Shown piece by piece: positions 4,806 through 11,624 of a stretch of 64,000 nucleotides of DNA (position 1 is the stretch's first letter; every line of letters starts with the position of its first letter). The notes below the pieces were generated by a model, which did no database searches, was not told the origin of the DNA, and saw nothing but the letters and a program-made list of their open reading frames with translations. Source of the stretch: Xanthomonas euvesicatoria pv. euvesicatoria (GTDB lineage: Bacteria; Pseudomonadota; Gammaproteobacteria; Xanthomonadales; Xanthomonadaceae); assembly GCF_020880415.1 (NCBI RefSeq), contig NZ_JAJIUJ010000111.1, forward strand, positions 1 to 64,000, written 5' to 3'. The translations under genes and the position numbers were made by a program.

Positions 4806-6944
4806 ATGCGCCCCACGCTTCTTGTCACCGCGCTCGCCGCTGCGCTCGCTCTGCACACCCTGCCCGCCTTCGCTCAACACACCACCACGCCAGCCGTGAC
4901 CGAGCTGGATGGCGTGGATGTCATCGGCCGTGCGCAGACGCTCTACAAGTCCGAAGACGCAGCTGTTGCCACGCGCACCGATACCCCGCTGGCACTGGTG
5001 CCGCAGTCGGTGCAGGTGCTGCCGCGCGAGTTGATCGACGACCAGGCTGCGCGGCAGATCACCGATCTGTATCGCAGCATCAGTGGCATCAGCTTCTTCA
5101 GCTATGCCGGTGTGACCTTGCGCGGTTTCCGCCAGGAAAACGTGCTGTACGACGGCCTGCGTGGCGACCCGTATGCCGGGTTCTCGGTGCCGCAGCTGTT
5201 CAACATCGAGCGTGTGGAAGTGCTCAAGGGTCCAGCCGGTGCGCTGTACGGCGGTGGCGAACCCGGGGGTGTGATCAACTATGTCACGCGCAAACCCGCT
5301 CATCAGGCGGCGCGACGCATCGAGCTGCAGCTGGGCAATCAATCCTTCGGTGCAGCCTCGTTCGAGGCCACCGGCCCTGCGCGCGCAGATGGCCGCATCC
5401 GGTACCGCATCGGCGCCTATGCCGATGGCGAAGACGGGTTTCGTTGGAATACCGACAGCCAGAGCCAGATCGGCGATGCGTCGGTGGCCTTCGATCTGGG
5501 CGATACCGGCGAGCTCACCCTGCAATACACCGACATCACCCAAAACCTGGGCGGCAACCGCCTACGTGGCGTGCCGGTGGATAACGCCGGCAACTTCCTC
5601 ACCGACCGGCGCTGGAACCACAACGAACCCACAGATTTCCTGGACATGCGCGCCAAGGTGGCGCTTGCGCAATATCGGTTTGCGCCGTCCAGCGCGTGGG
5701 AGGTGGACATGGCGCTGCGCTGGTTCAAGAACCAGGAGCATCAGATCTATCACGAGCCAATGGGGTTGATCGACCGCGATCGCGACGGCACCGCCGAGTG
5801 GATGACCCGGCAGCTGCGCAATCAATACCGCGACAACGATGCGATCTCCAGCAACGTCAACGCGATATTCCGCACCAGTACCGGGGCAATCGACCACACG
5901 TTGCTGATGGGCGCGGACTACTATCGCCTGGACGCGGATTTCCGCGCGCAAACCGCCAACACCGCCGACACCGGACGCGTACGTGGCCCGGTGCCCGGCA
6001 TCAATCTGTTCAACCCGGTGTACGGCCGCAGCGGCTTCTACGACTAGGGCTTGGATGCCCTGCCCTGGCGCGCCACCAGCACGCGCAGTCAACGCTACGG
6101 TGCATATCTGCAGGACGAACTCACGCTGACGCCGCGCTGGTATGCAATGGCCGGGCTACGCTGGGACGGCTTCAAGGACGACGACCTGCTGACTGGTTCG
6201 CGCGTCACCGGCAACGATCGCAGTTGGCGCGTCGGCAGCACCGTCGTGTTACGCGACGGCATCAATGCCTACGCAAGCTATGCCAGCGGCTTCCTGCCGC
6301 AGGACGCGGCCAATCAGGACAGCAGCGTGGGCGGCCCGTTCGCACCGGAACGCAGCACCCAATGGGAAGTGGGCCTGAAGACTGCGCTCAACGATGGCGG
6401 ACTCACCCTCAACACGGCGCTGTATCGCATCGAGCGTAGCAACATCGTGCAGGCGAACGGGCGCGTCGTCGACGGCGTCAATCAACTCTCCGCGCTTGGC
6501 TTGGTGCGTAGCGAAGGGCTGGAAGTCGACCTACTGGCCGACCTGACCGAACGCTGGGTGCTCAATCTCACTTATGCCTACAACGATGCACGCGTGCTCG
6601 ATGCCGGCACCAACGGCATCACCAATGCCTCTGGCGATCGCTTCGCCAATGCACCGCGCAACACTTTTGGCTTGTGGACACGCTACGACCTGCCCGCTTG
6701 GCGCTCGGCGATCGCCTTCGGTGCCGACTACGTGGGCGAACGCGTCAGCCTGGATGGGCAACGCGTCAAACCGTACGCCATCTACGACATCAGCTGGCAG
6801 ACGCAATGGAACGCGTGGAAGCTGCAGATCAACATCAAGAACCTGTTCGACAAGGTGTATGCAGTGAGCGGTTTCAATACGCGCGCCGGGCACTTCCCCG
6901 GCGAGCCGCGTCGCCTTTACGCGCAGTTGGCCTACAGCTTCTGA
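4806..6944 (+). pseudogene. TonB-dependent siderophore receptor, interrupted by an in-frame TAG
   Basis: Without the internal stop this would be a 712-residue outer-membrane receptor of the TonB-dependent siderophore family: signal peptide ending PAFA, plug domain (about 40-170, with LKGPAGALYGGGEPGG near the plug end), and a beta-barrel ending in the typical aromatic AYSF. A TAG at 6045-6047 (codon 414) splits it: FYD-stop-GLDALPW. The downstream half continues in the same frame with no indel and intact barrel sequence, so the lesion looks like one recent substitution. The truncated product lacks roughly the last 40% of the protein, including most barrel strands, and should not insert. A sequencing error or suppressor tRNA are the alternatives. 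Confidence 0.9.
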
Positions 6945-8505: not shown

Positions 8506-10200
8506 TTATGAAGCCAGCGCCTGCGCGTGCACCCCGGCAATCGCGCGGCCCGATGGGTCGGCCATCGCGGCAAAACTCGCATCCCAGGCAATCGCCGTTG
8601 GCGACGAACAGGCAATCGACTTGCCGCCCGGCACGGTTTCCGCCGCCGCCTGACCGGGGAAAAACTGCTCGAACAAGCTGCGATAGAAATACGCCTCCTT
8701 GGTCTGCGGCGGGTTGACCGGGTAGCGCCGGTCGGCGGCGGCCAGTTCGCGGTCGCTCACCTGCGCCTGCGCATGCGCCTTCAGCCCGTCGATCCAGCCG
8801 TAGCCCACGCCGTCACTGAACTGCTCTTTCTGACGCCACAGGATCGATTCGGGCAGATAGCCGGCAAATGCCTCGCGCAGTACGCCCTTCTCCATGCGCG
8901 CTGCCCCACCGCTGGTCTTGTCGATCATCTTGAACCTGGCATCCATGCGCATCGCCACATCCAGGAATTCGCGGTCCAGGAACGGCACGCGTGGCTCTAC
9001 GCCCCAGGCCATCATCGACTTGTTCGCGCGCAGGCAATCGTAGTTGTTGAGCGCGTCGAGCTTGCGGACCAGCTCTTCGTGGAATTCGCGCGCGTTCGGC
9101 GCCTTATGGAAATACAGGTAGCCGCCGAAGATCTCGTCGCTGCCTTCGCCGGAAAGCACCATCTTGACGCCCATTGCCTTGATCCGCCGCGCCAGCAAGA
9201 ACATCGGCGTGGAGGCGCGAATGGTGGTGACGTCATAGGTTTCGATGTGGCGAATGACGTCGGGCAATGCATCCAGACCTTCGTCGAAGGTGTATTCGAA
9301 GCCGTGATGCACGGTGCCGAGCGCCGCGGCGGCCACTTCGGCGGCGGCCAGATCCGGCGAGCCTTTCAAGCCGATCGCGAACGAGTGCAGGCGCGGCCAC
9401 CAGGCTTCGGTGGTGTCGTTTTCTTCGATGCGGTGACGGGCATAGCGCGCGGCAACGGCCGCAACCAGCGAAGAATCCAGTCCACCGGACAGCAGCACAC
9501 CGTACGGCACATCGGTCATGAGCTGACGGTGCACGGCGCGCTCGAATGCTTCGCGCAATTCCTGTAGTTGCACCTGTACACCTTCCACCGCGTCATAGTG
9601 GCGCCAGGCGCGCTCGTAGTAACGGCTCAGTGCGCCGGTGGCGCTGTCGTACCAATGGCCCGGCGGAAACTGCGCTGCATCGGCGCAGTCGTCCACCAGC
9701 GATTTCAGTTCCGAGGCCACACGCAAACGGCCTTCGCGGTCGTGTCCCCAGTACAGCGGCACCACGCCGATCGGGTCGCGCGCGATGATGACGCGCCCTT
9801 CCGTCTTGTCCCAAAGCGCGAATGCAAAGATGCCGTTGAGGCGGTTGAGATAGGAGGCCGGCGTATCTTCGCGATACAGCGCATTGATCACCTCGCAATC
9901 GGAGCCGGTCTGGAATGCGTACGGCTGCAGCAGCTCCGCCTTGAGTTCGCGGTGGTTGTAGATCTCGCCATTGACCGCCAAGGCGAGCTGCCCGTCATCG
10001 GAGAGCAACGGTTGCGAGCCTCCGGCCGGATCGACGATGGCCAGGCGCTCGTGCACCAGGATGGCACCGGTATCGACGTAGACGCCGCTCCAGTCGGGCC
10101 CGCGGTGACGCTGCCGCTGCGAACATTCCAGCGCCTGCCGGCGCAGCGCCTGCAGGTCGTCACCGGGTTGCAGGCCGAAAATACCGAAGATGGAACACAT
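8506..10200 (-). CDS. asnB: asparagine synthase B (glutamine-hydrolysing)
   Basis: A 564-aa cytosolic enzyme making Asn from Asp, ATP and Gln. MCSIFGIFG gives the N-terminal catalytic Cys2 of the class II glutaminase domain (about residues 2-190). The synthetase domain carries the ATP pyrophosphatase loop SGGLDSSLVAA and the downstream GEGSDEIFGGY signature. The length is close to the 554 aa of E. coli AsnB. The start at 10200 is fixed by the obligatory Cys2 and by AGGAGA upstream. A leader ORF rich in Asn codons and a terminator stand between this gene and dapE, implying control by transcription attenuation (see those entries). Confidence 0.95.
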   Translation of the reverse strand: MCSIFGIFGLQPGDDLQALRRQALECSQRQRHRGPDWSGVYVDTGAILVHERLAIVDPAGGSQPLLSDDGQLALAVNGEIYNHRELKAELLQPYAFQTGSDCEVINALYREDTPASYLNRLNGIFAFALWDKTEGRVIIARDPIGVVPLYWGHDREGRLRVASELKSLVDDCADAAQFPPGHWYDSATGALSRYYERAWRHYDAVEGVQVQLQELREAFERAVHRQLMTDVPYGVLLSGGLDSSLVAAVAARYARHRIEENDTTEAWWPRLHSFAIGLKGSPDLAAAEVAAAALGTVHHGFEYTFDEGLDALPDVIRHIETYDVTTIRASTPMFLLARRIKAMGVKMVLSGEGSDEIFGGYLYFHKAPNAREFHEELVRKLDALNNYDCLRANKSMMAWGVEPRVPFLDREFLDVAMRMDARFKMIDKTSGGAARMEKGVLREAFAGYLPESILWRQKEQFSDGVGYGWIDGLKAHAQAQVSDRELAAADRRYPVNPPQTKEAYFYRSLFEQFFPGQAAAETVPGGKSIACSSPTAIAWDASFAAMADPSGRAIAGVHAQALAS

Positions 10201-10269
10201 GGAAACTCTCCTGAAGAACTGCGGGGGGTGGCGGCCGGGTGAGAGCGTGCTGCATGGATTGACGCCCAT

Positions 10270-10297
10270 AAAAAAACCCGCATCGGCCGATGCGGGT
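10270..10297 (-). terminator. Rho-independent terminator of the asnB leader
   Basis: On the minus strand the palindrome ACCCGCATCGGCCGATGCGG (continuing GT) occupies 10297 to 10276 and is followed by seven T residues (10276 to 10270). It lies 70 bp upstream of the asnB ATG, inside the presumed 5' leader. A T-run on the other side makes it potentially bidirectional, but the plus strand has no gene here. Confidence 0.9.
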
Positions 10298-10330
10298 TTT
10301 TCTGGTTCCTGGGCGCTTGGTGGACGTCGC

Positions 10331-10420
10331 CTAGTCGCAGACCCGCATCGGCCGCGCACGATTATTCGCGCGCAGATTGTTGCGGTTGGCGTTATTGAGG
10401 TTGGCGAGGCGAAGGACCAT
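10331..10420 (-). CDS. asnB leader peptide (29 aa, eight Asn)
   Basis: An ATG at 10420 opens a 29-codon frame ending in TAG at 10331. Asn occurs at positions 7, 9, 10, 12, 14, 15, 19 and 20 (28%), encoded by both AAC and AAT; AAT is otherwise uncommon in this GC-rich DNA. The ORF ends 33 bases before the terminator hairpin, and its last codons overlap the antiterminator copy. This is the arrangement of the trp, his and leu leader peptides. No strong Shine-Dalgarno is visible upstream (GTTAGCGTCGCCGAC), which is the main weakness. A TTGCCA at about 10465-10470 could be a -35 element. The product is expected to be unstable, with translation itself as the signal. Confidence 0.78.
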   Translation of the reverse strand: MVLRLANLNNANRNNLRANNRARPMRVCD

Positions 10421-10493
10421 GTCGGCGACGCTAACGGTTCGGTGGTACCGGCGCAACTGTTTCAGTGGCAACGACGGCGTCTGCGTGGCCCGC

Positions 10494-11624
10494 TCACTCG
10501 ACCAGCAGGCGCTCGATCAACGTGCGGTACAGCGCCGGTAGCGCCTGCAGGTCGGCGACGCGCACATGCTCGTCGACCTGGTGGATGCTGGCATTGACCG
10601 GGCCCACTTCGATGCATTGCGCACCCAGTGGCGCAATGAACCGCGCGTCGGAGGTGCCGCCCCCGGTGCTTTCTTCCGGCGGCGCACCGGCGAACTCCCC
10701 CAGGACCTCACGCGCGACGCTGCGCAACCGCCCTTCCGGGGTATAGAACGGCTCGCCGCTGCGGTGCCAGCGCAGCGTGTAGTCCAGCGCATGCCGATCG
10801 AGCAGCGCGGTGATTTCGGCTTCCAGGCGCGGCGCGTCCCAGTGCGGCGTATAGCGCAGATTGAAGGCCACCTGCAGCTCGCCAGGAATCACGTTATTGG
10901 CGCCGGTGCCGGCGTGGATGTTGGAAAGTTGCAGGCTGGTGGGCGGAAAGCTTTCGAAGCCGTCGTCCCATTGCCGCGCCACCAGTTCGGCCAGCGCAGG
11001 CGCTGCCAGATGGATGGGGTTGCGCGCCTTGTGCGGATACGCCACATGCCCCTGCACACCCTTCACGGTCAACGTGCCGGACAGGCTGCCGCGACGGCCC
11101 ACGCGCAACAGATCGCCCAGGCGCTCGGTGGACGACGGTTCGCCGGTGATGCACCAGTCGATCGTTTGCCCGCGTTCGCGAAACACCTCGGCAACCCGGC
11201 GCACGCCATCGATGGCATCGCCCTCTTCGTCCGAGGTCAACAGCACCGCCAGCGTGCCGGAGTGCGTTGGGTGTGCAGCGACGAATTGCTCTGCGGCGAC
11301 CACGAAGGCGGCCACGCTGCCTTTCATGTCCGCTGCACCACGCCCATACAACACGCCGTCGCGGATCTGCGGATCGAACGGGTCGCTGGTCCACGCCTCG
11401 CGCGGGCCCGGCGGCACCACATCGGTATGCCCGAGCAACACCAGCACCGGCGCACCGCTGCCATGGGTTGCCCACAGATTCTCGACCTCGCCAAGGCGCA
11501 AGTGCTCGCAGCCGAAGCCGGCTGCGCGCAGGCGCTGCGCAATCGCGGCCTGGCAACCGGCATCTGCCGGCGTTACCGAGGCACGTGCAATGAGGTCACA
11601 GGTCAACTCCAGCACATCGCTCAT
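10494..11624 (-). CDS. dapE: succinyl-diaminopimelate desuccinylase
   Basis: A 376-aa M20-family di-zinc hydrolase that releases succinate from N-succinyl-LL-diaminopimelate, a step to meso-DAP and lysine. Metal and catalytic motifs are visible in order: [23 protein letters not shown], the EEGDAIDG Glu pair, and the C-terminal GGTSDARF with a late His in ASIHQVDEH. The length matches E. coli DapE (375 aa). It lies upstream of asnB on the same strand, but the asnB attenuator and its terminator separate them. dapD, which makes an earlier pathway intermediate, is under 1 kb away. Confidence 0.95.

Follow-up and report, generated by a model that had tools for sequence, protein, structure and literature searches.

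A conserved asparagine-rich leader peptide and putative transcription attenuator upstream of asnB in Xanthomonas and related bacteria

In Xanthomonas euvesicatoria pv. euvesicatoria, the asparagine synthetase gene asnB is preceded by a short open reading frame (ORF) rich in asparagine codons, and between the two lies a hairpin whose 3' side is repeated in the last codons of the ORF. The same parts occur in the same order upstream of asnB in many related genomes. We propose that they make up a ribosome-mediated transcription attenuator of the trp/his type, which would sense charged tRNA-Asn and control asnB, and we put the probability of this reading at about 0.89. The evidence that supports it includes the following: the Asn-rich frame is kept in relatives, the pairing between the ORF tail and the hairpin co-varies in two of three sets of aligned leaders, and the distance from the hairpin to asnB is very short at some loci.

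All parts of the element are on the minus strand of the window, by which we mean the whole stretch of 64,000 nucleotides that was analysed. The leader ORF (10420–10331) has 29 codons and a UAG stop codon; its translation is MVLRLANLNNANRNNLRANNRARPMRVCD, with Asn at positions 7, 9, 10, 12, 14, 15, 19 and 20, exactly as an earlier note on this DNA had claimed. Upstream of it is dapE (11624–10494, stop codon 10496–10494; TIGR01246), and downstream is asnB (10200–8506, ATG at 10200), with the ribosome site AGGAGA at 10212–10207. The earlier note had named asnB as the target gene, and the identification holds: the product matches the model for asparagine synthase B (glutamine-hydrolysing; NF006949) with 869.4 bits against a cut-off of 499. 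The U7 terminator noted 3' of the ORF corresponds to the hairpin GAAAAACCCGCATC-GGCC-GATGCGGGTTTTTT with its U run at 10302–10270 (T run 10276–10270), which is apparent from the sequence, from folding and from a shuffle control. The 14-nt copy of its 3' side in the ORF tail is exact: CGGCCGATGCGGGT is found at 10354–10341 in the last codons (R1, the 5' strand of the putative antiterminator) and again at 10289–10276 (R3, loop and 3' arm of the terminator). The strand shared between them, ACCCGCATCGGCCG (R2, 10297–10284), is the 5' arm and loop of the terminator and can pair with either R1 or R3. Further upstream, the minimum-energy fold has a segment 1 region (10385–10354) made up of CCGCA (10385–10381) and a hairpin inside the ORF, GCGCGCGA/UCGUGCGC (10373–10354), around Asn19–20. 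The earlier note gave the element as 10270 to 10420; that range contains the leader parts, but the predicted promoter (10456–10428) and the controlled gene, from 10200 onward, lie outside it. The leader RNA (161 nt) is more stable than expected by chance (z = −3.05; equal stability in 0 of 200 shuffles). Rfam families gave no match at gathering scores anywhere in the 64-kb window, and we therefore rejected a T-box riboswitch at asnB. Elsewhere in the window, at 4806–6944 on the plus strand, a TonB-dependent siderophore receptor is represented by two adjoining in-frame ORFs, one matching the first half of the profile and the other the second; this is either an interrupted gene or a sequencing error.

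To establish how widely the leader occurs we read the DNA upstream of asnB in relatives. This type of AsnB is present in 269 of 297 genomes of the window's family and in 90 of 151 genomes of the order (E 1e-100), and upstream DNA was read at 130 such loci and at 80 named loci, with some genomes represented in both. An Asn-rich ORF precedes asnB at 93 of 95 loci in the window's own family (f1), at 13 of 14 loci in f12 and at all three in f2, and at none of the 18 loci from other families of the order. The earlier note had suggested looking for the Asn-codon frame across relatives, and there it is kept. It had also pointed to a terminator kept where the ORF is lost as a pattern that would speak against the idea; by eye, the three loci of these families that lack the ORF (L141, L186 and L194, the asnB start of L186 being uncertain) have no T-run terminator either. 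Among the 80 named loci, 41 were accepted, as records whose titles place them in the order or as bins whose AsnB identity places them near it. Marine gammaproteobacteria (Rheinheimera, Shewanella, Pseudoalteromonas, Vibrio and others) account for most of the remaining 39, which also include the Lysobacterales bin L097. Short ORFs with Asn codons occur in a few AT-rich marine genomes, with at most 7 Asn in 26 codons in a Photobacterium locus (L102), a count equalled by 5 of 100 shuffles, and we read them as chance. This view of the spread outside the order comes from the named loci; in a search of the whole class, this type of AsnB turned up in only 8 of 229 genomes.

Some relatives of AsnB are found in other settings. 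Records titled Rhodococcus, Holophagales and Deltaproteobacteria (L056, L048 and L073) contain AsnB relatives with 74–81% identity and no leader, which reflects either gene transfer or mixed assemblies. The genome of the window itself has a second AsnB-like frame of about 698 amino acids with 37–43% identity, in two stretches (L002 and L003, on contig C3).

The abundance of Asn codons is far beyond chance. In the window, where the ORF was counted from an upstream TTG for this comparison, none of 100 shuffles of the 350 nt upstream of asnB, with dinucleotides preserved, reached its Asn count, and at 118 of the 149 accepted loci the count lies beyond all 100 shuffles; the weak accepted loci, exceeding 3 of 100 shuffles, are L050, L062, L092 and L161. 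Seven loci with an Asn ORF (L088, L091, L102, L103, L109, L112 and L200), for which 3 to 20 of 100 shuffles gave as many Asn codons and which lack the promoter or relatives, were dropped before a non-redundant set of 111 leaders was made. This set includes L062 and L092, and several analyses use the 109 leaders without these two, which have a misplaced start or are weak. In the 109 leaders the mean number of Asn codons is 6.46 in the ORF frame (minimum 3), against 0.02 and 0.06 in the other two, and the three frames contain an internal stop codon in 0, 60 and 97 leaders, respectively; the shuffle test is the fairer of the two comparisons, as the number of Asn codons had been the criterion for picking the ORFs. 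The Asn-rich frame is kept far beyond the genus, also where the rest of the peptide differs. Leaders range from 19 to 61 codons, the longest probably having a misplaced start, and residues other than Asn vary widely. Among 18 Xanthomonas leaders, variation is not concentrated at third codon positions (of 28 columns, 16 are variable at position 1, 13 at position 2 and 11 at position 3), and some lack individual Asn codons. The leader peptide is enriched in codons for the product of its target gene, as in attenuators of the trp/his type. The leader ORF ends in TAG at 60 of 71 loci, compared to 8 of the same 71 for asnB; pairing and slow release are candidate causes of this bias.

All 111 non-redundant leaders have a hairpin of at least 7 bp within 110 nt 3' of the ORF. 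When those stretches were shuffled preserving dinucleotides, some hairpin was present in 601 of 2220 shuffles but the real score was reached in none of the 2220, and a hairpin occurs in the final 130 nt at 23 of 54 loci that have no leader, at a mean score of 16.9 compared to 34.7 in the leaders. We predict from this that an intrinsic terminator lies between the leader ORF and the gene. A simple consensus scan of 10150–10560 reported neither a terminator nor a promoter, and it probably missed the terminator because most of the T run is taken up in the stem. The stem itself co-varies: in the 22 leaders of Lysobacter type 97.5% of its cells are paired and 19 cells are changed on both sides, and shuffles equalled these leaders in 0 of 500 cases for paired cells, for double-changed cells and for score, and in 6 of 500 for pairs.

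These data bear on a different read-out of the same leader, in which stalling at Asn codons would alter translation or the access of Rho and no intrinsic terminator would be involved. A stricter hairpin search that demands a U run is passed by 82 of 109 leaders and failed by 27, including GCGGGCTTCGTCGTTT among several leaders of Lysobacter type, as a read-out through translation or Rho would allow. Against it, the hairpin carries a long U run in the window and its Xanthomonas-type relatives, the terminator stem co-varies, and the asnB ribosome site lies outside the switch. We regard this read-out as improbable, though it is the strongest competitor of the attenuator.

In the attenuator, the ORF tail and the 5' arm of the terminator are predicted to form a mutually exclusive antiterminator. 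Across the non-redundant leaders the pairing of tail with arm has a mean energy of −16.0 kcal/mol, compared to −10.0 for mononucleotide-shuffled tails (as good in 224 of 5550) and −11.1 for dinucleotide-shuffled tails (as good in 405 of 5550), and a leader's own tail beats the tails of other leaders on its arm in 8453 of 11872 comparisons. We counted co-variation on three aligned sets, using shuffles that do not allow for relatedness: 39 of 43 leaders of Xanthomonas type (leaving out L039, L137, L163 and L170), 18 of 28 of Rhodanobacter type (leaving out L049, L052, L064, L066, L173–L177 and L183, which are harder to align) and all 22 of Lysobacter type; a further 16 leaders fall outside the three groups and were left unaligned. 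When the partners are slid against each other, paired cells drop to 58% or less in all of the pairing counts.

The earlier note had predicted compensatory changes between the ORF tail and the terminator arms, and these are present in the Lysobacter and Rhodanobacter types, but the window's own clade has hardly any variation in which they could show. In the Lysobacter type 99.2% of R1:R2 cells are paired and 7 carry a change on each side; none of 500 shuffles equals these leaders in paired cells, in double-changed cells or in score, and for the weaker measures the figures are 23 of 500 (pairs with a double change) and 500 of 500 (further pair types). Six of these leaders have CAG for CGG, which places an A-U pair instead of G-C in R1:R2 and Gln instead of Arg in the peptide, while the same pair in the terminator keeps only U-G. 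A matched change in R1:R2 that leaves the terminator with U-G seems to reflect selection on the antiterminator itself, although this Arg-to-Gln change may be a single event in one lineage. In the Rhodanobacter type 87.3% of cells are paired (2 of 500 shuffles) and 3 are changed on both sides, with 0 of 500 for double-changed cells and for score, 43 of 500 for pairs that include a double change and 234 of 500 for further pair types. One leader outside the aligned sets (L121) has ACGGGC facing GCCCGT. In the Xanthomonas type R1:R2 is 88.6% paired and nearly invariant (25 of 500 for paired cells, 23 of 500 for score), and is therefore too conserved for strong co-variation.

The same evidence weighs on an explanation that we consider very improbable, namely that the hairpin is the terminator of dapE, that asnB has its own promoter downstream, and that the ORF is there by chance. 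dapE does lie upstream on the same strand, as it does at 35 of 71 tested loci, and terminators with similar stems are found elsewhere in these genomes (L233, L235 and L238). But the element accompanies asnB also at the remaining 36 loci of the 71, which showed no dapE upstream (for 12 of them the upstream DNA extends to about 1650 nt at most), and on these grounds we rejected the explanation. It also gives no role to Asn codons confined to one frame or to co-variation of R1:R2, and in 9 of the 111 leaders the hairpin is only 28–35 nt from the asnB start, which is too short for a separate promoter and ribosome site. Least credible of all is that the ORF encodes a small functional Asn-rich protein and the RNA structure is incidental, because, even though conservation of a short frame and of its start context would suit a protein, its length and non-Asn residues vary so widely, changes in the peptide follow the base pairing, and the conserved tail doubles as R1.

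A trp-like segment 1 that pairs with the ORF tail is likely but not settled. In the Rhodanobacter type this pairing has 75.3% of cells paired and 11 double-changed cells, with a score equalled in 0 of 500 shuffles. In the Xanthomonas type the pairing of CCGCA in segment 1 with UGCGG in R1 is present in 96.4% of cells and hardly varies, and the hairpin inside the ORF is paired in 75.3%, which is weak as evidence. Folding gave an ambiguous picture of whether pairing of segments 1 and 2 would bring termination back when the leader is not translated.

The stop codon lies where a ribosome terminating on it would mask the antiterminator strand: in the 109 leaders the distance from the end of R1 to the end of the stop codon has a median of 9 nt (range 1–21), and the terminator starts a median of 26 nt after the stop codon. 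We folded three leaders in detail (the window's, L150 and L053), under the assumption that a ribosome masks the RNA to 12 nt past its A site. For the full RNA of the window, a ribosome stalled at any Asn from 7 to 15 favours the antiterminator; the terminator is favoured if the ribosome stands at Asn 19/20 or at the stop codon, or if there is none. For the full RNAs of L150 and L053 the terminator is preferred for every stall, so that the antiterminator would have to win kinetically there, by forming first. In 105 of 109 leaders at least half of the 5' arm is paired upstream before the 3' arm emerges if the ribosome is stalled in the middle of the Asn run, compared to 6 with a ribosome at the stop codon and 95 with no ribosome. 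The value of 95 makes it uncertain that termination is the default when the leader is not translated, and the low value of 6 arises because R1 is masked, and hence speaks for the consistency of the layout and is not a proof.

Upstream of the leader we found a conserved promoter-like sequence. In 107 of 111 leaders TTGC or TTGA occurs within −38 to −33 relative to the leader start, compared to 95 of 2220 random upstream positions; the matrix used to pick the leader starts covers the promoter region as well and so works in favour of this result, and with starts chosen before that matrix was applied the TTGC box is present in 91 of 111. The best mean match to TATAAT is 2.15 of 6 and ends at −7. 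In the window, the −35-like TTGCGC (10456–10451) and the −10-like TAGCGT (10433–10428) are separated by a 17-nt spacer, and each matches 3 of 6 positions of the E. coli consensus, so the promoter claim rests on conservation. Seven nucleotides separate TAGCGT from the leader ATG, and this spacing predicts that transcription starts on the A of the ATG (10420). The leader start codon is preceded by C in 105 of 111 leaders (98 of 111 before the choice by matrix). A 5-nt Shine-Dalgarno match was found at 0 of 111 leaders compared to 61 of 111 asnB starts, and a 4-nt match at 25 of 111 leaders, mostly inside a −10-like CAGGAT, compared to 100 of 111 asnB starts. The leader mRNA is probably leaderless, with its 5' end predicted from the promoter spacing.

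From these parts we infer the following sequence of events. Transcription would begin on the A of the leader AUG or on a nucleotide beside it, a position taken from the promoter spacing, and a ribosome would trail the polymerase through the Asn-rich ORF. If Asn-tRNA is plentiful, the ribosome would reach the UAG and cover R1, allowing R2 to pair with R3, and transcription would stop before asnB. If Asn-tRNA is short, the ribosome would stall on the Asn codons (7 to 15, judging by folding), R1 would be free to pair with R2, the terminator would form too late, and asnB would be transcribed. Asparaginyl-tRNA synthetase (AsnRS) is encoded in 140 of 151 genomes of the order, including that of the window, and tRNA-Asn can therefore be charged with the free asparagine made by AsnB, which fits the proposed sensing. 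AsnA, the ammonia-dependent synthetase, was looked for in 13 genomes of the genus, including the window's, and found in none.

We searched for similar leaders at other genes with a covariance model made from Xanthomonas-type leaders, run on 99 genomes of the family. The eight best matches are asnB leaders, several of which were used in the model or are close to sequences that were. We read 12 weaker matches among those listed and found no further Asn attenuator at another gene among them: three are plain terminators (L233, L235 and L238), and nine are leaders with runs of Leu, Val and Ile codons, for example MLHRHTPPTHDLRTAPSAASILVVVLITSPTGAGRTGV, and a matching terminator (L227–L232, L234, L236 and L237). 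ilvC lies downstream of the branched-chain leader in all nine cases, the family model being matched for two of these. By eye, the tail of the ilvC leader ORF is repeated in the 3' arm of its terminator, and a TTGACA promoter abuts its ATG, so this leader also looks leaderless. A loose Asn-codon pattern run on the window's own genome gave 79 and 81 matches compared to 60 and 49 for the control, and is uninformative. On balance we lean towards the view that Xanthomonadaceae and neighbouring families run amino acid attenuators, for asparagine at asnB and for branched-chain amino acids at ilvC, on leaderless leader mRNAs. If so, a 70S ribosome would have to bind right at the 5' terminus, with the polymerase only a short way ahead, and initiation on leaderless mRNA would become part of amino acid sensing.

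Leader-peptide attenuators have been described for Trp, His, Phe, Thr, Leu, Ile/Val and a few other amino acids. A 2004 comparative study by Vitreschak et al. reportedly lists none for Asn, and we know of no description of one. The mechanism that we propose is a known one, and its amino acid and target gene are, to our knowledge, new. Searches for Asn leaders and for leader peptides in this order, judged by title and the start of abstracts and with most subscription papers outside their reach, returned no Asn leader peptide, and in the main text of an attenuator survey (PMC2965389) the words 'asparagine' and 'asn' do not appear. A conserved Asn version would add an amino acid to those sensed by leader-peptide attenuators and would explain how asparagine synthetase is set in three bacterial families. 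Its many leaders also form an extensive natural collection in which pairings co-vary, and the predicted leaderless start offers a direct way to test how the start of transcription is coupled to leaderless initiation.

Sensing of tRNA-Asn charging is known in Gram-positive bacteria, where Asn-specific T-box riboswitches control Asn genes; a T-box binds the tRNA directly and without a translated ORF, whereas the asnB leader has an ORF. A close parallel in design is E. coli trpL, which like the asnB leader has a short ORF with cognate codons, a tail that pairs with the 5' arm of the terminator, a stop codon placed to let a terminating ribosome block that pairing, and biosynthetic genes downstream. 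The asnB leader differs from E. coli trpL in being specific for Asn instead of Trp, in controlling one gene, in its predicted leaderless start and in that the pairing of segments 1 and 2 is partly supported. In the alphaproteobacterium Sinorhizobium meliloti, the passages on trpL attenuation in PMC7298713 report a 5' end according to which the trpL leader RNA begins with the ATG of the leader ORF. That system resembles the asnB leader in combining an RNA that starts on the leader ATG with an attenuated biosynthetic gene, and differs in that it responds to Trp and has a reported 5' end, whereas the start of the asnB leader is predicted from promoter spacing. Within the window's own family, the ilvC leader shares the layout of the asnB leader and applies it to other amino acids and another target gene.
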